In this document: piece by piece, positions 13,764 through 53,964 of the stretch
Position numbering within the stretch: the first letter of the stretch is position 1
How the letters are laid out: each line of letters starts with the position of its first letter
DNA from: Chloroflexota bacterium
Lineage (GTDB): Bacteria; Chloroflexota; Anaerolineae; SpSt-313
Reading direction: 5' to 3'
Length of the DNA: 64,000 nucleotides
NCBI GenBank assembly: GCA_029553955.1
Contig: JAKPJZ010000201.1
Location: forward strand, 62,001-126,000
Program-made: the position numbers and the translations under genes
The notes under the pieces: generated by a model
The model's input: the letters and a program-made list of their open reading frames with translations, nothing else
What the model was told of the DNA's origin: nothing
Database searches by the model: none

Positions 13764-14168
13764 TTAGCTGCGCAGGAGGCGGAGTAGCCAGAGGATGAGC
13801 AGCCCGGCGACGAGCAGCCAGATGGCGACGATGACGGCGGCGGCGAGCCAATTTGTGGGCCGGCCTTGGGCGAGGCGGGCTTGGGCCTGGGCGCGGCAGG
13901 CGGCGATGACGGGCGCTGGGGTGAGGCGCAGCACGAGCGCGATGCCGAGCGGCACGAGCACGAGGTCGTCGAGGTAGCCGAGGACGGGGATAAGGTCGGG
14001 GATGAGGTCGATGGGGCTGAAGGCATAGGCCACCACGACAGCCGCCAGGGCCTTGGCGTACCGGGGCAGGCGGGGGTCGCAGCAGGCGAGGTAGACGGCG
14101 TAGGTGTCGGATTTGAGGCGGGGGGCGCGGGCCTGCCAGGCGGCGAGAACGCTCACCGTGTCCTCCAC
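13764..14168 (-). CDS. DUF1232 (YkvA-type) membrane protein
   Basis: The 134-residue product contains YAFSPIDLIPDLIPVLGYLD, the defining DUF1232 motif, followed by the hydrophobic segment LVLVPLGIALVL and a C-terminal membrane helix rich in Leu/Ile/Trp. The first codon of the frame is GTG at 14168, without a strong ribosome site. Function is unknown for the family. It is monocistronic here. Confidence 0.85.
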   Translation of the reverse strand: MEDTVSVLAAWQARAPRLKSDTYAVYLACCDPRLPRYAKALAAVVVAYAFSPIDLIPDLIPVLGYLDDLVLVPLGIALVLRLTPAPVIAACRAQAQARLAQGRPTNWLAAAVIVAIWLLVAGLLILWLLRLLRS

Positions 14169-14690
14169 GAGAGGGGCTGGGGTGCGTAGATGCAGAAAGG
14201 TCAGACGAGCAGGAGGACGCTACCATGGGAACGCGGCGGGGTCAAGGGCGGCTGACAGGGTTGGGTCAAGGGATATGCCGGCGTCGGGCGGGCCGGGGGC
14301 GGGGCTATCGACGGACGGCGAGAGGGGCGAACCACGAAGGGTTCTGGAGCACGAAGGGCACCAAGGGCGCGAAAGACGCGAAAGGGGCACGAAAGGGTTT
14401 GGAGCACGAAGGGCACGAAAGACGCGAAGAGGGGGTGAAGGCCGGCGGCGGGTTGAGGGTGCGGGAGACGGGACGTAGCTGGTGGAGAAGGCCGACGGGA
14501 GCGGACGGGCGGGCTGCGTAGTGGCGCGGGGAGAGGTGCGGCCTGGGGAGGGGATCGGGCCTGCAATGAGAGGACTGCGCAGCTCGGAGGACCTTAAGCG
14601 CAGGGGTGAGGCCTGCAGCATGGGCATCGGGGTTGGCCTATGTGAGTGTTGGTTGTTGCCAAGATGGGCACCATAGAAATATGGTACAAC
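14169..14690. other. Intergenic region with low-complexity repeats
   Basis: No gene was seen. Between 14325 and 14435 motifs of the type CACGAAGGGCACCAAGGGCG and GACGCGAAAGG recur several times; shorter versions occur at 15710-15735 and 34015-34030. The rest shows no recognisable structure. Confidence 0.5.
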
Positions 14691-14694
14691 ACCA

Positions 14695-14723
14695 TTGACT
14701 TACCCGGCAAGATGCCTTATAAT
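14695..14723 (+). promoter_or_regulatory. Promoter of a candidate small RNA
   Basis: TTGACT (14695-14700) and TATAAT (14718-14723) are exactly 17 bases apart on the plus strand. No plus-strand protein gene follows: the next gene is convergent. The predicted start is 14730. Confidence 0.7.
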
Positions 14724-14729
14724 CTATGT

Positions 14730-14822
14730 ATAGCAGGCATGCGCGGGGAGCCCTTGGTCGTCCGAAAGACGGCAGCCGGCTTGGCCGGTGGGATCCTGGG
14801 GTCCGGGGCCTGCTTTTGTTTT
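14730..14822 (+). ncRNA. Candidate structured small RNA
   Basis: From the predicted start, AGCAGGC (14732-14738) can pair with GCCTGCT (14808-14814). It encloses the hairpin CGTC-CGAAA-GACG (14759-14771) and the hairpin CCGGC-TTG-GCCGG (14776-14788), and it is followed by TTTTGTTTTA. The arrangement of promoter, closing stem, two internal hairpins and T-tract fits an RNA of about 90 bases ended by its own terminator. It does not match SRP RNA, 6S RNA or a hammerhead as far as I can see. The 3' end touches the stop of the convergent DUF3800 gene. Existence is an inference. Confidence 0.4.
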
Positions 14823-15573
14823 ACCTCAGCGTGGCGAGGAAGGGATACTCCTGGAGCAGTTGGGCTTCGGGGAAGAGCTTCAGGCCATAGTTGAGCAAAC
14901 GCCCTCCACCACGGTACAGTCTCCCCTTGATGCCCTCCAAGTAGCATTGGTGCGTATTGCCATAGAAATCGGGGTTGAATGCCGCGCCCACAGCGCTGGC
15001 GCAGGCGTCGGCGATCTGGAGCATCTTGACGTCGGCCGGAAAGGCGACGCTGATCTTGTCGGGATCGAAGACGGGCTTCATGCTGGCCCTGCGATCGGTG
15101 AGAACCTGGCGCAGGTAGGCGCAGAGGAGTTCCTGACGAAAGCGTGCCCTGTTGCTGAAGGTCAGAGCGGCCCACCCGCCGTGCGCCGCGACGTGCCATG
15201 TCACCCGCTCCAAGAGCAAGCGTGTGGCGTATTGATAGAGATAGTGCGCATCGGCAATTGCTGTACTCCTCCAGATGTGGCGCTTGTTCATGCCGACTGC
15301 GATAAGGCAGAAGGGCTTGTCCTTGACCAACTGGCAGACCACCATCTTTTGCTCGTAGCGCAACGTCTTCCAATGCAGGACCCTGGGTGGCTTCTGCGCA
15401 TGGCTCGTCCACAGGCGATGGACGATCTCATCGACCGTGTGGCGTACGGCCGGCTCGTCCTCGACCTTGACGATGATGCCCGCCAAGAAGAACCAGGGCG
15501 AACTGCCCGAGTTGAACTGGAAGCCCTCGTCGCCACTCTCGTCGATGTAGCAATGGAAGGTGGGTGTGCTCAA
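14821..15573 (-). CDS. DUF3800 protein
   Basis: The 250-residue product opens LSTPTFHCYIDESGDEGF; YIDESGDEG is the DUF3800 signature (acidic residues of a putative RNase H-like or nuclease fold). Further conserved-looking parts are HWKTLRYEQK and the C-terminal ADVKMLQIADACASAVGAAF. A TTG start at 15573 is chosen because GAGGGGG lies 4 bases upstream and because the longer frame begins before the predicted promoter. DUF3800 proteins are common in mobile and defence regions. The biochemical function is not established. It lies beside the broken HEPN-like gene. Confidence 0.75.
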   Translation of the reverse strand: MSTPTFHCYIDESGDEGFQFNSGSSPWFFLAGIIVKVEDEPAVRHTVDEIVHRLWTSHAQKPPRVLHWKTLRYEQKMVVCQLVKDKPFCLIAVGMNKRHIWRSTAIADAHYLYQYATRLLLERVTWHVAAHGGWAALTFSNRARFRQELLCAYLRQVLTDRRASMKPVFDPDKISVAFPADVKMLQIADACASAVGAAFNPDFYGNTHQCYLEGIKGRLYRGGGRLLNYGLKLFPEAQLLQEYPFLATLR

Positions 15574-15665
15574 TTGGCCCCCTCGATCTGCCGGCGCAGG
15601 GCCCGGGTGAAGCCGGTGGCGAAAGGCCGGCTGGCGCCGTGCCTGGGAGCAGTTGTTCGCGAAGA

Positions 15666-15694
15666 AGTATAGCAGTATTGCGGGCGCTGTGCAA
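15666..15694 (-). promoter_or_regulatory. DUF3800 promoter
   Basis: On the minus strand TTGCAC (15694-15689) and TATACT (15671-15666) are 17 bases apart. The predicted start near 15659 supports the downstream TTG start codon of the gene. Nothing else was seen in the 15574-15950 gap except a short GGGCACGAAAGG-type repeat. Confidence 0.5.
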
Positions 15695-15950
15695 GGGATG
15701 GTGGGGCACGAAAGGTGCCAAAGGCACAAAGAGGATTTGAAGGGCTTCGACGGTCAGGATGCCGTGGCGGCGCAGGGCTTTGTAGGGCCTGGTGGGCAGG
15801 CTGAGTTGGGCCAGCGGGTGGTGGGGAAGGTCGTCTTCCATGGTGGTTCACCGCCGCGTCGAGCCGACGTACACTGATGGGAGAGGGGTCACCGGGTGCT
15901 ATTCCAGTATAGCGCGGGGCGTAGGGCGTCCTCTGTCTGCTGATGTGCCT

Positions 15951-16655
15951 CTACAGCGAGAAGACGTCCGTTGAGTCGGAACCTGAACCCACGTCAAAGA
16001 GCATACGACCGGACAGAAGAGCCAAGTATTCGCGCAGATAAGGGAGATACTGGCGGTCATCGACACCTAGAGTGCCCGACTCACATTCTGTGTGATCGTC
16101 GAGAAAGTAGGTCGTAATAGTGAACTGGGCCCGATTTCGATCAAAGGAGGCGTGCCAGTATACTAAATAGCCTTCCGGGTCAGCGTAGTACGTCACCTCA
16201 TCGGCAAACCTGTGGATGTACCACCACGTGCTGTCTAGGAAAAGTGACACCGCATCTACAAAGTCCGCCACTGCGTCGGCGTTTGGCGGGGTGAGGTCGT
16301 GCTCCGCGACATTCCTGAATGTGTTCAGTCTTCTGAGTATCCTTGGCGCGGGGAGATGCAGGTACTCGAGCAAGTCCAGCTTCTTGGGAACAGGCTAGCC
16401 CCGTGCCTTTCCTTCGAGCCCGAACACGAAGAGCAACTCCTGGATCCGACAATCGAGCGCCCTCTTCGCGTTGGAAATGGCATCAATAAGGCGCACTCCA
16501 TCGTTCCCTTGCCGCAGGTACTCGTATGCAGCGCGCAGGAAGTCAGTGGCCTTCACTCCGGGGGGCAGTTCCACCCCTGGCGGATCTGCCTCGTACCGCA
16601 GCGCGTCGCGGATGTTGGCCACCTGATGATCGCCCCACTCCCACTCTGCATCCAT
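15951..16655 (-). pseudogene. HEPN-like gene interrupted by an in-frame TAG
   Basis: Two consecutive open stretches are in the same frame and are separated only by a TAG codon at 16397-16395. The first (16655-16398) begins MDAEWEWGDHQVANIRDALR after a strong AGGAGAGG ribosome site and ends in DAISNAKRALDCRIQELLFV. The second continues KKLDLLEYLHLPAPRILRRL and NTFRNVAEHDLTPP, whose R-x4-H fits the catalytic motif of HEPN RNases, and closes with a Tyr/Trp-rich region. Joined, the protein would be about 235 residues. Possible readings are a nonsense-inactivated gene, stop-codon readthrough, or a sequencing error. The HEPN call rests on helical pattern and the RNxxxH motif only. Confidence 0.6.
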
Positions 16656-16834
16656 TGTACCTCTCCTGCGCAGACAAGACCACGTGACCGCGTGGCACAG
16701 TATCCTCTGCGCCTCCTTCATCAAGCTGTACTGCGAGGAGCCACGCTGGCGGATTGCTCGCGGGCTGGGCACCCCGTTCCCCACTCGTCACCGGCAACCG
16801 GCATGAGTCCCTCACTGACAGCTTACAAACATCG

Positions 16835-16863
16835 AGCATAACACACAACTTTATCGCAGTCAA
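16835..16863 (-). promoter_or_regulatory. Candidate promoter of the HEPN-like gene
   Basis: On the minus strand TTGACT (16863-16858) and TATGCT (16840-16835) are 17 bases apart. It leaves a long leader of about 170 bases before the ATG at 16655, in which I see nothing recognisable. Confidence 0.45.
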
Positions 16864-16970
16864 GCGCTGCGCTCTGCCTGCTCTCGCGCACTGCATCACG
16901 TGCGGCGCCAAATGAGAGTGTTACCGATCGGGCTATCCCGCAAGCGTGACGCGGCTATCCGTGAATCTCT

Positions 16971-17081
16971 GTTCATCAGACCGTTGTTGTGCCACAGGGA
17001 GAAGGGGACGATGTGACTGACGGCGAACTCGCCGCGGATGTGGCGGCCGATGTGGGCGCGTAGCCGCTCCCCTTTTGACAA
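16971..17081 (-). pseudogene. HNH endonuclease fragment
   Basis: A frame of about 37 residues reads KGERLRAHIGRHIRGEFAV then SHIVPFSLWHNNGLMN. HIVPFSLWHNN..N strongly resembles the core of HNH nucleases, in which the motif DHxIPxSLWxNNDLWN precedes the LLP segment. Stops precede it (TAG just upstream) and the similarity ends after LMN, so only a remnant is left. It overlaps the promoter of the ABC transporter on the other strand. Confidence 0.55.
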
Positions 17082-41870: not shown

Positions 41871-41876
41871 ACGCCA

Positions 41877-41913
41877 GACACCTGACAGGTCTCCCGAAGA
41901 CCTGTCAGGTGTC
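41877..41913. repeat. Family D hairpin after apgM
   Basis: GACACCTGACAGGTCT (41877-41892) and its exact complement (41898-41913) enclose CCCGA. It lies 6 bases after the apgM stop. The motif ACCTGACAGGT is shared with 13627-13661 and 54852-54869 and with the left flank of family B. Confidence 0.75.
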
Positions 41914-42031
41914 GTCATTGTGAGCCTCATCGCTTTGCCCTCCGTTTTCACACAAGAGCGGTGGTGGGCGGCGCCAACTGCGCGAGGGCCAAGGCGTGAT
42001 AGGCAGGCCAGCAGCCCGCACCGACGCGTTC

Positions 42032-45000
42032 TCACATCTCCTTGCTGTCCCTCACAATAATGTTCCTGAGCAGCGTGTTGCTCTTGCCGTCCTGCAGAGC
42101 GGCCGTCAACCCTCCTCCGGGGTCTTGCTCATATTCGGCGGTCACATCGACAACGATGCGAAGAACTCTGGGCGCCTGCGACTGCAGTGGCTTGAGGATA
42201 CTGCTGAACAGGGCGGTCAACTCCCGTAGTGAGCTTAGGGTACCCCGAACTGTGACGACGCGTCCCCGGTCTGACTCTACGCCGCCGGCCCCTCCCTTCA
42301 GGACCACTGAAACCCATCCCGACTTGAGCGCCTCCATATCTGTAGGTATGTTTGCCTCAGGGCCGCTGGGCCCCACATGATAGGCCAACTCTTGACTAGT
42401 CACAAGCTCTCTGAGAGCGAGATGGAACGACTTGTCGTCTATCGGAACGTTCCGGCCTTTGGCAACATATGCGTAGATGGCCGACACACGGGCCGGCTGG
42501 CCACCACCGTTGACGGCCACCACAGCATCCCTTACCTCTTCGACGGTGACCTGTGTCGGTTGGGTGGTGATGGCCTCATACAACGTAGGCCGCAGGAGCA
42601 CCCACCTCTGGCCAATCTGTGGCTGCTCCTGGGGAGGCAGGGCCATCTGCTTGAAGTAGAGGGCTGTATAGCTGTCGCGTTGGTCGCGCGGGCTGTCGTC
42701 GTTGGTCAGGTGGCCCAGGGCAAACAGCCCTTTCTGCTGGCCAACACGAAGTGTGTCCAACAGGGTGTTCTGGTCTCGCAGCACGGGCAGTGCAACCTGC
42801 CGGCAAAAGCGCTCCCATAGCTCGCGAGTCGTCACCGATAGTTGAGCCCGCGGCCAGGTGTGCTCCTGGTAGCGGTCCAGCAGCACCTCGGGGGTCAGCT
42901 CGGTCATGATGGATTGTCCTGCTCCCGAGGAGCTCGTCAAGCGCTCCCAGGCCAAAGGGGCAATGAGCTTGCCCGGGCCATAGTGGCCAGAGCGTACGGT
43001 CGAGAGCTTGACGACGCTGGCGTTGCCCTCGCGTGCCACCGTCGGCAGCAGAGCCCAGCAATAGGCGCTGATAAGGCCGCGGATAACGGCTGCGGATGCA
43101 CTCTCCATACGGGCTGTGACAATGCTCTGCTGGGCGCCACCGATACGGTCCCATTCGCCCGAGTTGCGCTGTATCTTGCTCCAGCTCAAATAGTCTGCTG
43201 CCGCCTGTTTGGCCAGTTTGATGCCGCCTTCGTCGGCCGCACAGAAAACGAGGGTGTTGCGGTTCTGCCGCAACAGGTCGCCCCGTCTGTCCAGCATGGC
43301 CAGACAGGCCCGCTCGGTGTCACCGCTTGCCACTCCCTCGGTCACGGTGTACTGGGAGTCGAGCACGATGAGCTTGAGAGCCTCGTCATCAGGCACCGCC
43401 TGGCTATCCTCCGGGCGGTAGTGGACCTGGAATCCATGCCCTGGCATTTTGTCGCCCAGGGCATTCCTGGTGGTAGTATTCTGCATGTGGGCGTCAACCT
43501 CGCCCGGCGTCAGGTTAGTGTAGTGGGTGTATTGCAGGCTAAGGACGTTGGGCTGTTTGCGGAACTGGTAGCGCGACTCCTCCCAGAAGTAGTAGAACAG
43601 ACTGCGCTCAAAGCGGGCCAGGATGTCGTCCCACACGGACTCCGGAACGCCCGGCCTGCTGCAAGCCAACCTCAGCCCCTCCCGTGTGGCAGAAGGAACC
43701 TCGCCGCCGCCCACGCTGTAGAGCAATATGGTGGTCGCCAGCCCCTGAGCCAGGCTTCCAGTCTGGTGTTGTCGGTCCAGCAACTGGGCCTTGGCCAACT
43801 CGCTCCCCGGCTGGGCTGCGATATCGGTGCCGATGACCGTCTCCCACTGCTCGTCGCCGGCGACGCGGCGCGCCATGCCGCGCAGGTCGCCAACCCCCAG
43901 GTCGACGTCACAACATTGGATGAGGGCGTTCTCACATCCCTCGCGGCGGGTCCACAGCTGCTGCAGCGCCAGGGCCAGAAAGCGCAGAGTATCGCGGGTC
44001 TCCTGAAAGCCTGCGCACGCCCCCCAGCGCTCATAGAGCACGGAGATGAGCTCGGGATGGAAAGGATAGCTGTGGGCTATCAGGCGCTCATAGTCGGCGC
44101 CCATCTTCTCCGCCGGCAGGCTGCCCAGACTGGCATAGAGCTGGCGGTAGCCCTTGGCCGTTGCCGCGGCGCTCTCTCCGTCCACCTGTTCAAAGAGGCG
44201 CCGGCGGACGACCTCGTGTATCTCGCTACGCTGCACAGGGCGAATGGCCGTGGCCTCGCGCAGCACATGCTCGTTGAGTCGCTCCAGCCAGGCCATAGCG
44301 CCATCGCTCAGCATGTCCTCGCGGCTGGCGGTGAGGGAGACGATCATCACGGCGCCACGTGCGGCATTGACGGCGTCGGTCAGCTCGCGCAGAAAAGCCA
44401 CGGTCTGCTCGGCCAGGCTCCTTTCCGCCGTCTTGATGCCGGTTACCTTGTCCACATAGTGCAAAGTCTCGTCAAAGAGGATTGCACAGGGCCCTGCATG
44501 CCGCAGCAACTCTACGAGCGCCTGGTCGCCGGGCGAGACGAGCGTCTCGTCGTTTTGGGCGACCAGGGCATAGGCGGCCGGGCCGCCGAGCTGATAGGCC
44601 ACCTCGCCCCACAGGGTACGAATCTGTAGCCCCTCAGGGGTAGCGCGCCCCAGAGGGTTGAGGCTGGTGCCTGGAATGACTGCCACCTGGGCCCTGGGTG
44701 GCCGCCCCAGGCCGGCTGCCTGCACGATAGCGGCAACATCGGCCACCTGCATGGCCTCTTCAGGATGCTTGAGCAGATGGAAAGCTGCCAGCTCGGAATG
44801 GCTTTTGCCGCCGCCAAAACCGGTCTGCAGCCACAGCACACCGTTCAGATCGCGGTTGCCGGCGACCCGCTGCAGAACGCGCGCAAGCAGGTCTCGCAGG
44901 CCATCGGTGAAGTAGGTCTTTTGGAAGAACAGGCGCGCATCGAGGTACTCGTCCGCACCCTCCCCTCGGGCAACGTGGCCCAGCTTGGCATCGAAGAGCC

Positions 45001-45064
45001 CTTCGTTGACGCGCCCTTTCGCAATATCCTCGTGCGGGGTGACCGCCTGCCACCATGCTTTCAT
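42032..45064 (-). CDS. DUF499-type AAA+ ATPase of a defence operon
   Basis: The 1,010-residue product starts MKAWWQAVTPHEDIAKGRVN. Its Walker A motif is in LWLQTGFGGGKSHSE near residue 85, and the Walker B region is CAILFDETLHYVDKV near 190; together these are characteristic of DUF499. An AAA+ lid region follows (SLTASREDMLSDGAMAWLE), then long alpha-helical and mixed regions without known motifs. It is third in the operon, 40 bases after the methyltransferase stop. DUF499 genes recur beside DUF1156 methyltransferases and SNF2 helicases in defence islands; the precise activity has not, as far as I know, been shown. Confidence 0.88.
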   Translation of the reverse strand: MKAWWQAVTPHEDIAKGRVNEGLFDAKLGHVARGEGADEYLDARLFFQKTYFTDGLRDLLARVLQRVAGNRDLNGVLWLQTGFGGGKSHSELAAFHLLKHPEEAMQVADVAAIVQAAGLGRPPRAQVAVIPGTSLNPLGRATPEGLQIRTLWGEVAYQLGGPAAYALVAQNDETLVSPGDQALVELLRHAGPCAILFDETLHYVDKVTGIKTAERSLAEQTVAFLRELTDAVNAARGAVMIVSLTASREDMLSDGAMAWLERLNEHVLREATAIRPVQRSEIHEVVRRRLFEQVDGESAAATAKGYRQLYASLGSLPAEKMGADYERLIAHSYPFHPELISVLYERWGACAGFQETRDTLRFLALALQQLWTRREGCENALIQCCDVDLGVGDLRGMARRVAGDEQWETVIGTDIAAQPGSELAKAQLLDRQHQTGSLAQGLATTILLYSVGGGEVPSATREGLRLACSRPGVPESVWDDILARFERSLFYYFWEESRYQFRKQPNVLSLQYTHYTNLTPGEVDAHMQNTTTRNALGDKMPGHGFQVHYRPEDSQAVPDDEALKLIVLDSQYTVTEGVASGDTERACLAMLDRRGDLLRQNRNTLVFCAADEGGIKLAKQAAADYLSWSKIQRNSGEWDRIGGAQQSIVTARMESASAAVIRGLISAYCWALLPTVAREGNASVVKLSTVRSGHYGPGKLIAPLAWERLTSSSGAGQSIMTELTPEVLLDRYQEHTWPRAQLSVTTRELWERFCRQVALPVLRDQNTLLDTLRVGQQKGLFALGHLTNDDSPRDQRDSYTALYFKQMALPPQEQPQIGQRWVLLRPTLYEAITTQPTQVTVEEVRDAVVAVNGGGQPARVSAIYAYVAKGRNVPIDDKSFHLALRELVTSQELAYHVGPSGPEANIPTDMEALKSGWVSVVLKGGAGGVESDRGRVVTVRGTLSSLRELTALFSSILKPLQSQAPRVLRIVVDVTAEYEQDPGGGLTAALQDGKSNTLLRNIIVRDSKEM

Positions 45065-45104
45065 CGTCCCCTGCCTCCCGGAAGCCGCCTTTGCCGGCGC
45101 CCCC

Positions 45105-47828
45105 TTACAGCGGAAAATCCAGAGTAAGCTGTGTCGCCTCGCCTGGTTTGCCCTTGCGATTGTGACTGCCCCAAATGCCCAGCATGCCCAACAGCAGGCG
45201 CCGCTCGGCGGATTCCTGGGGCTGCAGCTCGGCCAGGGCCAAAGCTACGCGGCGGGCCGGCTCCCCCTGGCCCTCCAGAAGCTCGGCCAGCTCCTCGCGC
45301 CGGTTATCGCGCCACAGCAGCGCGGCGGCATAGACGATATCGACCAGCGGGGCCTGGCCGGCGATGATGCGCGGCAGGGCAGTGCCCAGCAGCTCGGGGC
45401 GCTGCTCTGGGCCCCGCAGTAGCATCTTCTTGGAGCCGTTGTGGCGGCCAATCATCCCGCGACGCTCCAGCTCGCCCAGCTCGACGCCGGTGGCCTTGTC
45501 GAGGAGGAGTGCGGCGCCGGTCTCGACAGCGTTGTTGCCATAGGTCCAGCGCCACAGCAGGGCGAACTGCGTCTCGGGGTCCACCTCGCCGGGGTCCAGC
45601 CCCCGCAGGGCGCGCTCCAGCGAAAACTCGACGACCGTCTGGCGCACCAAGGTGAGGAAGCTGGCCACGGAGACGGGCTGGCCGTTGGCGTAGCGCACCT
45701 CGGCGAAACGGGAGTAAGCCGAGAGGGCTGGCCCGATGGCGCTGACGAAAAAGTCGGCGCCGCCGATGCCCGCGGCCCAAAAGCGGTCCAGGGCCTGGCG
45801 CACGGCAATGCGCATCTCGGGCAGCACCTGGTCCAGATAGCCGGTGCGCTCGCCCTGCCGTTTGCGGCAGACCAGCAGAATGGTCGCCGCCAGCATGGCG
45901 CCGCCCAGCCAGTCACGCCGGGCCGCCGTTTCGGTTTCGATGGGCCAGGAGGCCGTCACCTGCAGGCCGGCGCGGATGAGTGCGGCGACCAAAGCCTCCC
46001 AGGCGCTGGTCGCCTGATGGGCGTACATTACCATGGCGATGCCGTCGGGCTTCAGCACCCGGCGTAGCTCGCTCAGCGCACGAGAGAGGCCATCCTCAAA
46101 AGCCTTCTGTGCTTTCGCTTTGCTCCCATGCCGACCTGGGTCAGCCACAATCTCAGCTGCCTTGGGCGTCATAGCCGAGGGAAAGTGCTCGGGCAGGATA
46201 TCGCTCAGAGCACGGTGCAGCCAGACGTACTGCATGTCGGCCAGGTAGCTGTACCCAACGCTATCATAATAGGGCGGGTCGGTGAGCACAGCGTCGAAAT
46301 GGTCATCGGGGAAGGGCGGCTGGGCTGCATCGCCCCAGCCCACCTTCGCAGGTGCCTCGGCTGCACCAATCAGGCGTCGAATCGCAGGCAACGCCCAGCG
46401 CAGAGTGCTGGCCCAACTGCCGGAGCCATCGGCCAACGGGTTGGCCTCGACATAGTCCCACAGCATCGGCAGGCGATGGCCTCCGGTTGCCGCCTGGACG
46501 TTGTCTCGGGTGTTGTCCCATCTGGACCCTTCAGACATCCTCAACACCAGCCGGCTCACCGTCAGCGCCAGGTAGAGGGCCACGGTGCGGGCCTCCGCGG
46601 CGCCACTGCCGGCGGCCAGCAACGCATCATGCGCCGCGCTCACACCCTGGCAGAAGGTAGCGAGCGCCAACTGCTGGCGGGCGTTGTGCATCTCGCCCCA
46701 GGTCTCTACGCCATAGGGAGTCACGTTGAGCCAGCGTCCGCCGGTTGTAGCTATGGGTTCGTCCGGCACCAGTGCCAGGAAGGGGTCGTCGTGATTGGCG
46801 ATGGCCTCCGCAAGGGCGCTTTGTGCGGCTGCATAGGCGGCGCGGTCGTCATCAGTGGCGGGGCGAAAGCGCATACCCGACTTCCCTTCCCCTCCGACGG
46901 CCACCGCCAGAAGCAAACGGCCATCCTGCTTGGCCATGCACTGGGCCTTGACTTCGTAGGGGGAAAGGGTCTGGAGGCAGAAAGGGCACTGGACCGAACC
47001 GCGGGCCATGGTGCCCCGGTCAGGGCCATCGGCGACTGCGGCGGCGCCAATGAACACCTCGACCTCGAAGGTGCGGTTCGGCTGAGGGATCAGGCGATAC
47101 GCTACGGGCGGCTTGTCGTTGCGGCGGCTGAGCCAGCGGTGGGCAATGAGCGGAATCTCGGCGCCACAGGCTGGGTTGGTGCAGCGCACCGTCTTGGCCC
47201 AGAAGAAAGCCTCGGGCGCGCCACCATCCGCAGCGTGGTAGTACGGCGCCAACTGGGGGCGCACCCAGTCCAGCAACCAGGCGCCCCAGGCTTCCACAGC
47301 CTGCACCAGGTTGCCGGTGCGAGGGGCATCCGGCTCGTCCAGCAGGGTTGGCTCGCGAACGGGCAGGCGGAAAGCCGTATGGGCAAAGCGCATGGGGTAA
47401 TCCACCGTAGCCAGCAGGGTCAGCACGGCCACAGGATTGAGGTCCAGGGCGTGGGCCTCACAGCCCAGCCGGATGGCCTCCAGGGGTAGGGACCCACCCC
47501 CGGCGAAAGGATCCAGAACGCGGGGCTGTTCGCCGGCAAAGGTGGCTCTGATGTAGCGGCGCATCTCTGCCAGACGCTCTTTCTTGGTCTGCGGCGCTGT
47601 CTCGCTCAGGGTGTCGGTGATGAGGCTCAGAAGCTCCAGCCGCCCCTGCTCGGTGTTGGGTGCATCCACCAGGGCAGCAAAGGTGGCAGCGCGACAGGCC
47701 GCCAGCGGCCGCCGCGCGAACCAGGTGTGGATGGTGTGGATAGCGCCGTAGGAGATGGATTTGCTGCTCTCCCGGCTTATCTCGGCCAGGGGCAGCAGCT
47801 CTTCGATCAGACGCCGTTGCTGGCTCAT
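45105..47828 (-). CDS. DUF1156-type DNA methyltransferase
   Basis: The 907-residue protein opens with LIEELLPLAEISRESSKSIS and IHTWFARRPLAACRAATFAA, the DUF1156 N-terminus. The methyltransferase core has the AdoMet loop DPFAGGGSLPLEAIRLG and the catalytic DPPY motif in VLTDPPYYDSVGYSYLADMQ, which modifies an exocyclic amino group (N6-adenine or N4-cytosine). Two CxxC pairs, CTNPACGA and CPFCLQ, suggest a zinc ribbon in the middle. KPDGIAMVMYAHQAT is the following strand. Its ATG overlaps the helicase stop in an ATGA junction, so translation is coupled. It probably marks self DNA for the operon. Confidence 0.93.
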   Translation of the reverse strand: MSQQRRLIEELLPLAEISRESSKSISYGAIHTIHTWFARRPLAACRAATFAALVDAPNTEQGRLELLSLITDTLSETAPQTKKERLAEMRRYIRATFAGEQPRVLDPFAGGGSLPLEAIRLGCEAHALDLNPVAVLTLLATVDYPMRFAHTAFRLPVREPTLLDEPDAPRTGNLVQAVEAWGAWLLDWVRPQLAPYYHAADGGAPEAFFWAKTVRCTNPACGAEIPLIAHRWLSRRNDKPPVAYRLIPQPNRTFEVEVFIGAAAVADGPDRGTMARGSVQCPFCLQTLSPYEVKAQCMAKQDGRLLLAVAVGGEGKSGMRFRPATDDDRAAYAAAQSALAEAIANHDDPFLALVPDEPIATTGGRWLNVTPYGVETWGEMHNARQQLALATFCQGVSAAHDALLAAGSGAAEARTVALYLALTVSRLVLRMSEGSRWDNTRDNVQAATGGHRLPMLWDYVEANPLADGSGSWASTLRWALPAIRRLIGAAEAPAKVGWGDAAQPPFPDDHFDAVLTDPPYYDSVGYSYLADMQYVWLHRALSDILPEHFPSAMTPKAAEIVADPGRHGSKAKAQKAFEDGLSRALSELRRVLKPDGIAMVMYAHQATSAWEALVAALIRAGLQVTASWPIETETAARRDWLGGAMLAATILLVCRKRQGERTGYLDQVLPEMRIAVRQALDRFWAAGIGGADFFVSAIGPALSAYSRFAEVRYANGQPVSVASFLTLVRQTVVEFSLERALRGLDPGEVDPETQFALLWRWTYGNNAVETGAALLLDKATGVELGELERRGMIGRHNGSKKMLLRGPEQRPELLGTALPRIIAGQAPLVDIVYAAALLWRDNRREELAELLEGQGEPARRVALALAELQPQESAERRLLLGMLGIWGSHNRKGKPGEATQLTLDFPL

Positions 47829-50800
47829 GGGGTTCCTTCGTCCGCTGCCGCCCGCCAGGTAGCTGCGTCAAAGCCATAGTGCGCGCCAGTATGCAGCACC
47901 ACATCGGGCGCCATGCGGGTCAGCGGGTCGCGCACCACAGTGACGGGCGCCTGGCCCAAGGGGTCAGTGACGATGTAGAGGTAGAACGAGCCCCGCAAGC
48001 GTTGGGCGGCGCGGCGCTCGTTTTCAGACATGAAGATGCGGCCGGTGGTGGTGCCCTTGACCTCGATACAACGCGGGCCGCCGGGGCCAGTGCTATGGAG
48101 GTCATAGGGGTGCAGGTAATGGTCGCCGGTGAGGTCGGTCACCTCTCGACCGTGGGCCTGCTCGTACCGCACCACGGCAGCCATGGCCGCTTCCGCTACT
48201 TCTGGCCTCAGGTCACGCAGCTCGACCACAGGCGGCTCCGCCAGGGGCAGCACCGCCGACACCCCAAGGATCTCCGCAAACGTCAGCGAGCAGGCCTCCT
48301 CGCGCGCCAGTTGCTCCTGAAGGGCGCTCAGGCGACACTGAGCCTCGTGCAACCCCCTCTCGGCCACATCTGCGTCTAGCTGCATCTCCCACACGGCCTC
48401 TTGGTAGGCCTGGTCCGCCAGTGCGACGGCCCGTGTTGCTTCGGAGACTAGAGAGGCTCGCCTTAAGGTCACCATTCCGCGCCGACGCGCGCTCTCGTGG
48501 CGCAGCCACGGCATCTGCTGGTGTTCAAGGCTCCAAGCCCATGCTGCTGCTGGGTCATGGGAGAAAGCCGTCATCCACGCTGGGAGTTGGGCTCTGGAGG
48601 TCGCAGGGGCCAGGTCGATGAGTGCCGATGTCGGTACGTTCTCCAGGCTATCCTGGTTCTGGCGAACGGCGAACAGCCGCTCCGAGACTATCTGCCCCTG
48701 CCCATCAAGCACTCGCCCCTTTATGTGCCAGATGAGATAGCCCTTCCCTGCCGGCAGGCTGGCATCCCAAAACAAGGCGCCCTGCGGAAGCGCACTGCCC
48801 CACAGCTCCTTGGCGAGGGCGAGGAAGCGATCAAGGGTCGGACTCCCCAGCGCTAGGAGGCGGGCGCCTGTCGTCTTGCCGGCCATCTCCTGGTCGAAGG
48901 TGAGCACGACCTGCTCGCCCTGCCGGACGCCGAGGCACTCGGCAGTGACTTTGCGCTGAGCTGTGACCGCAAAGCCTTGAGCATCGCCAGGGTCGCTGCC
49001 TTGGCTCGGCCATGCCTCGGGAGCCTCGCCGAGGGTTTGCAGCACATCCACCACAAAGTGTTGTGCATACTCGGGGGTCAGGCGGAAATGGCGCGACGCC
49101 TGGCGGATGTCATCGTAAGCCCTGGGGTCCAGAGGACGGCTTCTCCCTTCACCCTGCCGATAGCGCTCAACGCCCCGCTCGGTGGCCCGGAGCAGTTCCT
49201 GCAGGACCTCATATTGGGACCCCTGCTCGGCAGGCGATGCGGCAACCTTGGCCAGCAAAGCCTCTACGTCGGCGTCGGCCACCAGCAGGCTGATGACGTC
49301 GAACACCCGGTCTCCCAGGTGGTCTCGCATTACCTCCAGCCGTTCCATGAGGCCGCGCAGCACAAAGCCCTCGCGGGTATCGCCGGCGCCCAAGTTGTAG
49401 ATGCGAGCCACGCGCTCCTGCCCATAACGGTGGATGCGCCCCATGCGCTGCTCCAGGCGCGCGGGAACCCAGGGCAGGTCAAAGTTTACCATGCGGGCGC
49501 AGAACTGCAGGTTGATGCCTTCGCCGGCCGCCTCGGTGGCGACCATCACCTGGCAACGCTCGTGGAACTCCTTCTCTGCCTGAAGACGGTCCTGTTGGGA
49601 CATGGAGCCGTCAATTTGCGTGACGGTGTAACCCCACTCCTCGAAAAGCCTGCGGAGGAAGACCAGGGTGTCCAGGAACTCGGTGAAAACGAGCAGCCTC
49701 TCGCCGTTGCCAGGGACTACGCCCGCCTCCACCATCACCTCCTGCAGCTTGACGACCTTGGTTTCGGGGCCCTGCTGGTGCACGCCTTCGATCCCGACCA
49801 GGAGCTGGTCGATCTCGTCCACCTCACGGTGGCGTTCTCTGGCGCTTCGCGCCGGAGAAACCGTTTCAGCACGAGCCTCCGCCGCCCAGCGTTCGGCTTC
49901 GGGTGCATCTTCGCCATAGCTCAACGGTGCCTGCGGCGCACTACCAGATGGAGACAGCAGGGCGTGGCGCCTCCGGAGCAGGGGATGCTCAAGGGCAGCC
50001 AAGCTGGATGCCACCCGGCGCTGCAGAATGGTCATGGCAAATTGGGTATTGACCCGAACCTGCCCTCCCAGCTTCTCAGCCGCGCGGTAGGTCTTGGTCA
50101 CATAATCAGTGAGAGCCCGGTACAGTCCCCACTCAGACGAGTTGTCGCTCAGGAGGTACCAGCGAGTCTCCACCTCGCGTGGGCGGAATAGCGGCTGCCC
50201 ATCAAAGCCGACCATCTCCTCTTTCAGCCGGCGCAGCATCATCGGAGTGCCGGGCATAGAGCCATCGGCAGGGCAGGCTACAGAGGGGTCGGTGACACCT
50301 GCATCCAGGAGCTGCAACAGCTTTAGAAAGTTCACGGCATCGCCCTTGTGGGGGGTCGCTGTGGCCAACACAAGGTGCTTGGTGCGCCGGGCCAGAATCC
50401 TGCCCAGTTCGTAGGCCTGGGTGTGGCGTGTCTCATAGCCCGCCATGTGGTGGGCTTCGTCTATGACAACGAGATCCCAGGGCACAGCAGCCAGGGTTGC
50501 TCGAATCTCATACTGGCTGGCAAAGGACACGCTGGTGATTGCCTGTTGGGTCTTGGTCCAGATCTCAGGGTCCTTGCGCAAGGAGTCGCGGTCGACGACC
50601 CCAAAGCTCTCGAAAAACTTGTCCCGCATTTCGCGCTGCCATTGGAGGACCAGAGCGGCAGGGGCTACAATCAGAGTGCGCAGCGCGGGCTGGCGCATGC
50701 GCAGCTCTTTGTGCAGCAGCCCGCACATCACTGTCTTGCCGGCTCCAGCATCGTGAGCCATCAAGTGGCGGATGACTGGCTGCGGCAGCATAAAGGTGTA

Positions 50801-51121
50801 GACGGCTTCCAACTGATGAGGTAAAAGGTGGATCGCTGCATTGTTGGTGGCCAGAAGGGGGTCGCACGAATACCCGAGGCGCAGCCGCTCGCCCTCCAAG
50901 GCCAGGCGATAGTGGCTCGCGTCAGCATCCAGGCTGGGCCGCCACTGGACAACGTTGGCCTGTTGCCAGGCCTCCGCTGGCAGAATCGACCCATAATGGT
51001 AGCCGGTCGCCTCCCCTGCGCCGCTAAAGGCGATAGTCCCCGCTCGCATCTCTTCTTGCGCAGCGATGCGGATGGATTCGGGCCAATAGGGCCCCGTGAC
51101 ACGGCTTCCCAGAATGTACAT
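47825..51121 (-). CDS. SNF2-family helicase with a DUF3883-like C-terminus
   Basis: The 1,098-residue protein is a superfamily 2 DNA translocase. Motif I is HDAGAGKTVMCGLLHKEL, motif II VVIDEAHHMAGYE, motif III LATATPHKGDAVNFLKLLQL and motif VI ARLEQRMGRIHRYGQER. The helicase core covers about residues 85-640. Residues about 970-1060 contain YDLHSTGPGGPRCIEVKGTT then ENERRAAQRLRGSFYLYIVT, a pattern of the DUF3883 nuclease-like fold (E-V-K). It is the promoter-proximal gene of the operon. The putative EVK site suggests it may both move on DNA and cut it, but that is inference. Confidence 0.92.
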   Translation of the reverse strand: MYILGSRVTGPYWPESIRIAAQEEMRAGTIAFSGAGEATGYHYGSILPAEAWQQANVVQWRPSLDADASHYRLALEGERLRLGYSCDPLLATNNAAIHLLPHQLEAVYTFMLPQPVIRHLMAHDAGAGKTVMCGLLHKELRMRQPALRTLIVAPAALVLQWQREMRDKFFESFGVVDRDSLRKDPEIWTKTQQAITSVSFASQYEIRATLAAVPWDLVVIDEAHHMAGYETRHTQAYELGRILARRTKHLVLATATPHKGDAVNFLKLLQLLDAGVTDPSVACPADGSMPGTPMMLRRLKEEMVGFDGQPLFRPREVETRWYLLSDNSSEWGLYRALTDYVTKTYRAAEKLGGQVRVNTQFAMTILQRRVASSLAALEHPLLRRRHALLSPSGSAPQAPLSYGEDAPEAERWAAEARAETVSPARSARERHREVDEIDQLLVGIEGVHQQGPETKVVKLQEVMVEAGVVPGNGERLLVFTEFLDTLVFLRRLFEEWGYTVTQIDGSMSQQDRLQAEKEFHERCQVMVATEAAGEGINLQFCARMVNFDLPWVPARLEQRMGRIHRYGQERVARIYNLGAGDTREGFVLRGLMERLEVMRDHLGDRVFDVISLLVADADVEALLAKVAASPAEQGSQYEVLQELLRATERGVERYRQGEGRSRPLDPRAYDDIRQASRHFRLTPEYAQHFVVDVLQTLGEAPEAWPSQGSDPGDAQGFAVTAQRKVTAECLGVRQGEQVVLTFDQEMAGKTTGARLLALGSPTLDRFLALAKELWGSALPQGALFWDASLPAGKGYLIWHIKGRVLDGQGQIVSERLFAVRQNQDSLENVPTSALIDLAPATSRAQLPAWMTAFSHDPAAAWAWSLEHQQMPWLRHESARRRGMVTLRRASLVSEATRAVALADQAYQEAVWEMQLDADVAERGLHEAQCRLSALQEQLAREEACSLTFAEILGVSAVLPLAEPPVVELRDLRPEVAEAAMAAVVRYEQAHGREVTDLTGDHYLHPYDLHSTGPGGPRCIEVKGTTTGRIFMSENERRAAQRLRGSFYLYIVTDPLGQAPVTVVRDPLTRMAPDVVLHTGAHYGFDAATWRAAADEGTP

Positions 51122-51180
51122 TTCGTCGCCTTGAATGAGTGACAGAAGCTACGATGACCGAACAAGGCCACCACATACGT

Positions 51181-51209
51181 ACTATACACCTGGCCCCTCT
51201 GAGGGCCAA
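51181..51209 (-). promoter_or_regulatory. Promoter and possible operator of the defence operon
   Basis: On the minus strand TTGGCC (51209-51204) and TATAGT (51186-51181) are 17 bases apart. TGGCCC (51191-51196) and GGGCCA (51203-51208) form an inverted repeat across the spacer and -35 box. Such an arrangement would let a dimeric repressor block polymerase. The predicted start is near 51174, with a 53-base leader. Confidence 0.5.
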
Positions 51210-51366
51210 ATGCCCGCGCCAAATAGACTCCTCGCATCGGCCTATTGACAACTGCCGGATTCTGCTGTATTCTGTGTCAGAACATGTGTGCTATCCGGTC
51301 CTTCGTTCCCCTTACGCAGTATTCATCACCCAGTACTCGACGCATCGCGCATCGCGGAGGCCCGCT

Positions 51367-51800
51367 ATGCCACCACGTCGCCACGTCACACCGCGTATGC
51401 TCGCCGCCAACCGCGCCAATGCCCGGCTGTCCACCGGGCCGCGTACGCCTGCCGGCAAAGCGCGCAGTCGCGCCAATGCCCTCGTGCATGGCCTCCGTGC
51501 GGGCGTCCTCGCCGCGCCCCTGCTCGAGACCGACGACGACCGGGCCGCCTTCGCTGACCTGTTCGCCGCCCTGCACGCCTGCTATGCGCCCGCCGGCCCG
51601 CGTGAAGAACGCCTCGTCATCACTCTGGCCGAGTCCTACTTCGCGCTGCACCGCGTTGTGCAGACCGAGACCGCCGCCGATCAGCCCTACCTGTCCACCG
51701 CCACCATCAAGGCCGTCACACGCTACGAGGCGCCATGGGTGCGTCGCTTCTGGCAGAGCCTTGGCCTGCTCGACGAGATCCAGACTAGACGCCGAGGCAT
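51367..51800 (+). pseudogene. Small conserved protein of the STGPRTPAGKARSRxNALxHGL type, stop codon lost
   Basis: From ATG 51367 the frame reads RMLAANRANARLSTGPRTPA followed by GKARSRANALVHGL, a motif I know from many small uncharacterised proteins that are present in multiple copies in Planctomycetes, Acidobacteria and related genomes. A central acidic part and a terminal VTRYEAPWVRRFWQSL also fit the family. Homologs end soon after this, but here the frame stays open through about 380 bases of repeat-like sequence straight into polX. The 3' border given is an estimate. Function unknown. Confidence 0.5.
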
Positions 51801-52144
51801 TCCGCGTCTTCCCCGTGCTTCCGCGTTTCCGTGGTCGCTGCCGCGCCCACATTCCGAGCGCCCGCGGCCTGCTGCGGTTCCGTCCCAGCCCTTCGCGCTG
51901 CCGTCCCCTTCCGAGCTTGCCGCGCTCATGTCGCTTCCGCACCGCCGACACCTATCTCCCCGCGACGGGGAGACGTTGGGGGGGCCTCGCCAGGGGGGGC
52001 GGTGGGGGGGCGTGCACACACAAAAACGCCCGAGCGAAGCCAATCTTCACCTTTCTTTACGCCTCGCACCCATGACCCACCTCCAGGCCCCTCCGGCCCC
52101 GAAGGGCGTCCTGACTGCATGTGCTTGCTGTACACTCGTTGGCG
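51801..52144. other. Repeat-like readthrough region upstream of polX
   Basis: It has an open frame but no coding character. The piece TATCTCCCCGCGACGGGGAGA (51953) is a palindrome similar to family E ends, followed by G-rich sequence. No conserved gene was recognised. Confidence 0.4.
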
Positions 52145-52173
52145 TTGCCAGCGGGTTGAAAAGTGAGTATAAT
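52145..52173 (+). promoter_or_regulatory. Leaderless promoter of polX
   Basis: TTGCCA (52145-52150) and TATAAT (52168-52173) are 17 bases apart, so +1 falls on 52180, the A of the polX ATG. Identical in sequence and geometry to the promoter of the MerR-like gene. Confidence 0.75.
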
Positions 52174-52179
52174 CCGGCC

Positions 52180-53964
52180 ATGCGCAAGCCTGCAAAAGCG
52201 AGCAAAGAGACCCGGGCCGCGGTGAAGGGTGCGACGCTGGAGCACCGCTTCACCAACCGCGACGTGGCCGCACTCCTCCTGCAGATTGCCGATATGCTGG
52301 AGATCAAGGGGGAGGTGGTCTACAAGAGCCTGGCCTACCGGCGGGCGGCGCAGAGCATCCTCGACCTGGGCCGCGATATCTATGAGGTCTGGGCCGAGGG
52401 GGGGCTGCGCGGCATTCCGGGGGTGGGCGAGGCGCTGGCCAAAAAGCTCGACGAGCTCCTGGGCACGGGCCGCCTGCAGTACTATGAAGAGCTGCAGGAG
52501 CAGGTGCCCGCGGGCGTTGTCAGCCTGCTCGGCATCCCCGAGGTGGGCCCCAAGACGGCGCGGCTCCTGTGGGAGCGCCTGGGCGCGATGAGCGTGGCCG
52601 ATGTGCAGCGGGCGGCCGAGGCCGGTGAGCTGCGCACGCTGCCGGGGCTGGGCGCGCGCTCGGAGCAGCGCATCCTCGAGGGTATCCGCGCGCTGAACCG
52701 GCGCGGCGGCCGCATCTCGCTCGGCATGGCCTGGCCGGCGGCCGCCGAGCTGCTGGAGCAGCTTCAGCACCTGCCGGGGGTGCAGGCGGTGTCGGCGGCG
52801 GGCAGCCTGCGGCGCATGAAAGATACCGTGGGCGACCTGGACCTGCTGGCGGCCGCCGAGGACGGCGAGGCGGTGACCACGGCGTTTACCCGCTTCCCAC
52901 AGGTGGCCGAGGTGGTGCTACAGGGGCCGACCAAGGCGACGGTGATCCTGCGCGATGGCCTGCAGGCCGACCTACGCGTGTTGCCCCGCGAGCGCTGGGG
53001 CTCGCTCTTGCAGCACTTTACGGGCAGCAAGGAGCACAACGTGGCCCTGCGCGGGCTGGCGCAATCGCAGGGGCTGAGCCTGAGCGAGTACGGCTTTCGG
53101 CGGGGCGATGAAGAGATCCTCTGCCCCGAGGAAGCGGACGTCTACAAGGTGCTCGGGCTCCCCTGGATCCCACCCGAGCTGCGCGAGGACCGCGGCGAGA
53201 TCGAGGCGGCGCAAGAGAAGCGCCTGCCCCGGCTGCTCGAGCTCGGCGATATCCGCGGTGACCTGCACACCCACTCCGATTGGTCGGACGGCGTGGCCTC
53301 GATCGAGCAGATGGCCGCCCGTGCGCGTGAGCTGGGCTACGAGTACCTGGTCGTCTCCGATCACACCCGCTCGCTGGCCGTGGCCAATGGCCTCGATGAG
53401 GGGCGCGTGGCGGAACAACGCGCGCTCATCGAGCGTCTCAATGCCAGGCACTCTCGCTTTCGCATCCTGCAGGGCTGCGAGCTGGAGATTTGCGGCGACG
53501 GCAGCCTGGACTTTCCCGACGAGGTGCTGGCGCGCTTTGACGTGGTGGTGGCTTCGGTGCACACCGGCCTGCGGCAGGACCGCGACCGGGTGACGCAGCG
53601 GGTGCTCGGCGCGGTGCGCAACCCCCATGTGGACGTCATTGGCCACCTCACCGGGCGGCTCCTCGGCCAGCGCGAGCCAAGTGAGGTGGACGTGGAGGCG
53701 GTGCTGCGCGAGGCGGCGCGCACGGGGACGGCGATCGAGGTCAACGGCATCACCAACCGCCTGGACCTGGACGACGTCCACGTCAAGCGCGCGATCGAGC
53801 TCGGCGTGACGCTCAGCGTCGACAGCGACGCGCACTCGACAGGGGCGCTGGAGTCGATGTTCTTTGGTGTGGCGACGGCGCGGCGCGGCTGGGCATCGGC
53901 AGCCGACGTGGTAAACACCCGGCCCCTGAGGGAATTCCAGGCGTGGCTCAAGGGCAGACACTAG
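52180..53964 (+). CDS. polX: DNA polymerase X with C-terminal PHP domain
   Basis: It fills short gaps in base excision repair. The 594-residue product has an N-terminal helical lyase-like domain (FTNRDVAALLLQIADMLEIK), helix-hairpin-helix segments (GIPGVGEALAKKLDELLG), the polymerase active site GSLRRMKDTVGDLDLLAA with the Asp pair, and a PHP exonuclease domain. The PHP metal ligands lie in GDLHTHSDWSDGVAS, VVSDHTRSLAVANGL, LQGCELEI, VASVHTG and VDSDAHSTGAL. ATG 52180 is preferred because the promoter places +1 there; the upstream frame is the previous, stop-less gene. Confidence 0.95.
   Translation: MRKPAKASKETRAAVKGATLEHRFTNRDVAALLLQIADMLEIKGEVVYKSLAYRRAAQSILDLGRDIYEVWAEGGLRGIPGVGEALAKKLDELLGTGRLQYYEELQEQVPAGVVSLLGIPEVGPKTARLLWERLGAMSVADVQRAAEAGELRTLPGLGARSEQRILEGIRALNRRGGRISLGMAWPAAAELLEQLQHLPGVQAVSAAGSLRRMKDTVGDLDLLAAAEDGEAVTTAFTRFPQVAEVVLQGPTKATVILRDGLQADLRVLPRERWGSLLQHFTGSKEHNVALRGLAQSQGLSLSEYGFRRGDEEILCPEEADVYKVLGLPWIPPELREDRGEIEAAQEKRLPRLLELGDIRGDLHTHSDWSDGVASIEQMAARARELGYEYLVVSDHTRSLAVANGLDEGRVAEQRALIERLNARHSRFRILQGCELEICGDGSLDFPDEVLARFDVVVASVHTGLRQDRDRVTQRVLGAVRNPHVDVIGHLTGRLLGQREPSEVDVEAVLREAARTGTAIEVNGITNRLDLDDVHVKRAIELGVTLSVDSDAHSTGALESMFFGVATARRGWASAADVVNTRPLREFQAWLKGRH

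Follow-up and report, generated by a model that had tools for sequence, protein, structure and literature searches.

What role is played by three large, closely spaced genes for a helicase, a methyltransferase, and an ATPase that lie among glycolytic and repair genes, and is the system that they form a new one? We studied this locus within a 64-kb stretch of DNA (here called the window) and conclude that it is a complete-looking copy of the already described Hma / Type-1 BREX-related (BR) antiphage system. The operon is real, complete in appearance, and probably functional in defence. The system is not an undescribed one. An operon type with DUF499 and an SNF2 helicase fused to a DUF3883 REase was predicted in 2013 (PMC3710099), and a COG1743-DUF499-SWI2/SNF2-nuclease operon was predicted in 2020 (PMC7641849). 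Payne et al. named the system Hma (helicase, methylase, ATPase) in 2021, with 1,638 instances in 26 phyla (PMC8565338), and in 2026 Rakesh and Krishnan re-analysed and reclassified it as Type-1 BR, which is DUF499 centred (PMC12839542). Antiphage activity of Snf2-nuclease is reported by Liu et al. 2024, as cited in the latter paper (PMC12839542).

The operon lies entirely on the minus strand and has the transcription order helicase, methyltransferase, ATPase (hmaA, hmaB, hmaC). The first gene (hmaA, 47825-51121) encodes an SNF2-family translocase of 1,098 aa, as judged from Pfam, PADLOC, NCBIfam, alignment, AF2, and Foldseek. The second (hmaB, 45105-47828; 907 aa) encodes a DUF1156 protein with an amino-methyltransferase domain, and the third (hmaC, 42032-45064; 1,010 aa) encodes a DUF499 AAA+ ATPase that carries no HEPN fusion (both from Pfam, PADLOC, and alignment). 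All three are full-length ORFs without internal stops. The 4-base ATGA overlap of hmaA and hmaB (47825-47828) and the 40-base spacer between hmaB and hmaC (45065-45104) are as originally described, and the protein families named at that stage are also those found by Pfam: SNF2/Helicase_C plus NOV_C (PF13020, DUF3883 REase) in HmaA, DUF1156 (E=1.2e-14) plus DNA methylase in HmaB, and DUF499 in HmaC. When searched with defence-system HMMs, the three proteins matched the PADLOC Hma models (PDLC00659-00662) for HmaA (E = 1.8e-127), HmaB (E = 1.3e-113), and HmaC (E = 9.5e-133). The idea of a shared promoter stands less firmly. There is a promoter-like site 5' of hmaA (51181-51209, minus strand; TTGGCC-17-TATAGT), but it amounts to one 9/12 consensus match, and the region holds five promoter-like sites, compared to 1.0 ± 1.0 in shuffled sequences. 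A single promoter for all three genes is thus plausible but weak.

From the N terminus, the domain order of HmaA is a putative small beta-barrel, the helicase core, a RapA/BrxHII-like alpha+beta domain, and a NOV_C/DUF3883 PD-(D/E)xK domain (approximately residues 977-1082, encoded at 47876-48191 on the minus strand; PF13020 E=1.7e-11). Residue conservation was judged in alignments of 9 to 11 sequences per protein. In the alignment of HmaA with 10 homologs, the helicase residues are invariant (Walker K129, DEAH D221/E222, and motif VI R562/R565), as is the nuclease triad D1007, E1020, and K1022. The AF2 model has a mean pLDDT of 62 overall, with values mostly of ~70 to 90 over residues 970-1095. 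There, a helix (973-989) is followed by strands at 993-996, 1008-1011, 1017-1024, and 1029-1032, a helix (1033-1045), and a last strand (1046-1052), giving an alpha-beta-beta-beta-alpha-beta topology in which D1007 opens one strand and E1020 and K1022 lie on the next. The model thus confidently predicts a PD-(D/E)xK fold for the C terminus, with the expected placement of catalytic residues. The initial annotation had singled out the DUF3883-like end as the possible cutter and proposed modelling it for an intact site; both the EVK motif and the upstream Asp are invariant within that modelled fold. Residues 782-959 are predicted to form a sheet of five strands that is interrupted by a long insertion of two helices (strands in 782-829, helices in 856-942, and a strand at 945-959), which is a feature of BrxHII and RapA (PMC12839542). 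RapA structures are the top Foldseek matches to the model, and RapA is the nearest solved relative by sequence as well as by fold. The strands modelled at residues 17-48 fit a small barrel, at a pLDDT of only 54 to 69.

The NOV_C domain was found in HmaA and in all six of the other NOV_C-type homologs scanned, and the copy studied here is the more divergent (44 bits versus 52 to 88 bits in the homologs); it reads PYDLHS instead of GYDIRS and EVKGT instead of EVKAR. Because of this divergence and the altered surroundings of the motifs, its activity or specificity may differ from that of the homologs.

HmaB carries methyltransferase motif I as DPFAGGG (residues 106-112) and motif IV as DPPY (residues 517-520); the motif I glycines and D517-P-P-Y520 are invariant in nine aligned sequences. 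Whereas the HmaB of Payne et al. (2021) was predicted to be an m5C enzyme, the protein studied here has the DPPY of amino (N6A/N4C) methyltransferases, in agreement with the PADLOC label "DNA-adenine methylase" and with the 2026 paper (PMC12839542). Between motif I and DPPY lies a Cys4 insert (C216, C221, C281, and C284). Six of the nine aligned sequences retain all four of its cysteines. Three more remote relatives (from L041, L047, and L048) lack three of them, and L041, at least, is a PLD-type locus. A search of solved structures with the HmaB sequence returned no significant relative, and the same search with HmaC found none.

In HmaC, the Walker A motif is GGGKS (residues 84-88) and the Walker B motif is LFDE (D198/E199), with K87, D198, and E199 invariant among the 9 to 11 aligned sequences. 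The structure model of this protein has very low confidence (mean pLDDT of 36) and is unusable. A beta-alpha-beta-alpha-beta arrangement is predicted at residues 937-1006 with pLDDT below 50, and the model is too weak there to verify an RRM-type domain.

How closely does this gene set correspond to known systems? As in the Hma of PADLOC, the same three proteins are encoded by adjacent ORFs. Type-1 BR is described as having a DUF499 protein with a C-terminal RRM/ferredoxin-like domain, an N6-methyltransferase with a C-terminal HTH triad, and a helicase with an N-terminal TUDOR domain (PMC12839542). The locus studied here shares with that type a DUF499 AAA+ ATPase whose Walker motifs are intact, a DUF1156 amino-methyltransferase with a TRD insert in the form of a Cys4 zinc finger, an Snf2 core with a predicted RapA-type alpha+beta domain, and a putative C-terminal PD-(D/E)xK nuclease on the helicase, its D-E-K triad intact. 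Like the type, it has no extra core genes. HEPN is fused to DUF499 in 1370/2446 taxa (PMC12839542), whereas the locus is a HEPN-less form, which still falls within the type. Most of the defining Type-1 BR features that were tested hold. Payne et al. noted an association of Hma with Septu in many genomes (PMC8565338); none of the adjacent genes scanned here matches Septu.

Related systems agree less well. Type-2 BR (PLD/HKD helicase plus DUF3780) has the ATPase/methyltransferase/helicase trio in common with this operon, but its nuclease is an N-terminal PLD domain rather than a C-terminal NOV_C. We rejected this assignment, as the operon has no PLD or DUF3780 match and its flanks are housekeeping genes. 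A Type-2-like BREX-related system does occur in a genome of the same family (locus L041; G001:C225, 1460-12430), where DUF499, DUF1156, and PLD-helicase genes are arranged C-B-A, opposite to the order here; its methyltransferase is the one noted above as lacking three of the four zinc cysteines. Type-3 BR / BREX was rejected since PglZ is absent at the locus. PglZ-domain genes are present on two other contigs of the genome (G000:C186:11046 and G000:C108:71904), and on C186 an HmaB-like match ~3 kb from the PglZ gene suggests a separate BREX-like locus. The SNF2 core of HmaA is also homologous to those of the DISARM DrmD, BrxHI-BrxHII, and RapA helicases. DISARM itself was rejected, with a DrmD score of 324 bits against the NCBIfam cut-off of 610 and no DrmA, DrmB, or DrmC in the operon.

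The operon probably reached its present site as an island acquired between apgM and polX. Genes for pyruvate kinase, PGK, PFK, and apgM precede it in the window, and genes for PolX, NAD-ligase, and a DEAD-box helicase follow it. The initial annotation described the three genes as less GC rich than these glycolytic and repair genes, and the values agree: GC is 0.64 (hmaA), 0.67 (hmaB), and 0.63 (hmaC) and GC3 is 0.75, 0.80, and 0.76, respectively, compared to a GC of 0.707 and a GC3 of 0.883 ± 0.037 (SD) for 24 further genes in the window. Two genomes from the same family (G001 and G002) have apgM and polX next to each other, ~70 bp apart, and the surrounding gene order is unchanged. The segment that they lack is ~10.3 kb long (41871-52180) and comprises the operon and ~1 kb with a multicopy small gene; as had been noted of the operon, it contains no separate restriction gene. 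The empty site could instead reflect loss in the two relatives, but gain is favoured because the composition of the segment, with its lower GC and GC3, differs.

The edges of the segment have features of their own. Just past apgM, at 41877-41913, is a perfect palindrome with 16-base arms (GACACCTGACAGGTCT...AGACCTGTCAGGTGTC); its half-site has 76 copies genome-wide, mostly as paired arms, and none in a reversed-pattern control. We assign this palindrome to a REP-like repeat family. At the other edge, a reading of 51139-53964 as a single 941-aa PolX was rejected, as the PolX of relatives starts ~1 kb further in. An ATG at 52181 follows a TATAAT box at 52168-52173, and relatives start near the same position. 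The in-frame stretch before it (51139-52180) is outside PolX and encodes "AANRANARLSTGPRTPAGKARSRANALVHGL", a small protein without family assignment that has ~8 more copies in the genome. Elsewhere in the window, a second GC-poor stretch (14001-17000) includes a DUF3800 gene (14821-15729, minus strand) and is possibly another acquired segment.

The three genes also recur together in other genomes. Homologs of all three are clustered in genomes of the same class (G047:C8, G015:C17, G040:C14, and G008:C179) and in contigs from Armatimonadetes (L052), Elusimicrobiota (L056), and Acetothermia (L058); single homologs in housekeeping contexts are not the pattern of the three-gene set. The closest homologs are ~37 to 43% identical. 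A relative of HmaB is present in 80 of the 298 genomes of the class, and such patchy occurrence is typical of defence genes. A scan of IMG/VR for viral carriage, with two narrow patterns derived from the HmaB alignment, found no relative.

We consider it likely that this is an Hma / Type-1 BR antiphage operon on a probably acquired island, in which HmaA, HmaB, and HmaC act in a manner resembling restriction-modification. The initial proposal of a modification-based antiviral plan, with a methyltransferase, a translocase-nuclease, and an AAA+ ATPase, was essentially right and matches the HmaA, HmaB, and HmaC defence families. Probably, one protein labels host DNA as self, and the other two find and destroy invader DNA that lacks the label. 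In the host chromosome, HmaB would most likely methylate adenines within a specific motif. HmaC, as an ORC/Cdc6-like AAA+ ATPase, would assemble on unmarked DNA or on phage replication intermediates and license HmaA, a RapA-like SNF2 double-stranded DNA translocase that would move along the foreign DNA and cut it with its C-terminal PD-(D/E)xK domain. We infer defence, methylation-based discrimination of self from nonself, and cleavage by NOV_C from the literature and from the protein families, while the locus itself contributes the gene set and its order, the intact catalytic residues, the modelled nuclease fold, and the empty site in relatives.

The chief rival to this restriction-modification-like scheme is a BREX-like action, in which HmaA and HmaC would keep phage DNA from being replicated or transcribed, the HmaA nuclease would not be the main effector, and NOV_C would be accessory or weak. 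The Type-1 BR core is homologous to BrxC, BrxXI, and BrxHII of Type-3 BREX (PMC12839542), one report describes inhibition of phage DNA replication by BREX (PMC13326643), and both the RapA-like character of HmaA and the divergence of its NOV_C domain are in keeping with such a block. However, the nuclease D, E, and K are invariant in a confidently modelled fold, and 79% of Type-1 BR taxa have the helicase-nuclease fusion, with other nucleases nearby in the remainder (PMC12839542). We therefore regard this alternative as unlikely. Somewhat less probable still is that the divergent NOV_C (PYDLHS/EVKGT) and the HEPN-less ATPase act otherwise than by restricting unmethylated DNA, for example, through an ORC-like DUF499 protein that halts phage replication. 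The divergent motif surroundings and the low identity to the closest homologs might also be expected of a decaying or partly inactive island, kept as cargo with a dead methyltransferase or nuclease, but three uninterrupted ORFs that keep every catalytic residue checked make this improbable. A housekeeping modification or repair module, as the glycolytic and repair neighbours might suggest, is hardly credible, given that those neighbours are syntenic without the operon in relatives, that no vertical conservation at the site was seen in the family, and that distribution is patchy, composition foreign, and the matches those of defence families.

The Hma operon studied here is an ordinary case of an already known system. 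New in this analysis are the invariant, intact catalytic residues, the modelled PD-(D/E)xK and RapA/BrxHII-like domains of HmaA, the empty site, and the HEPN-less HmaC. It adds to a widespread antiphage family an apparently intact minimal member, with three genes, no HEPN, and an empty site that can be seen in relatives. It leaves the picture of that family as it was, and the locus could serve as a simple one for testing.
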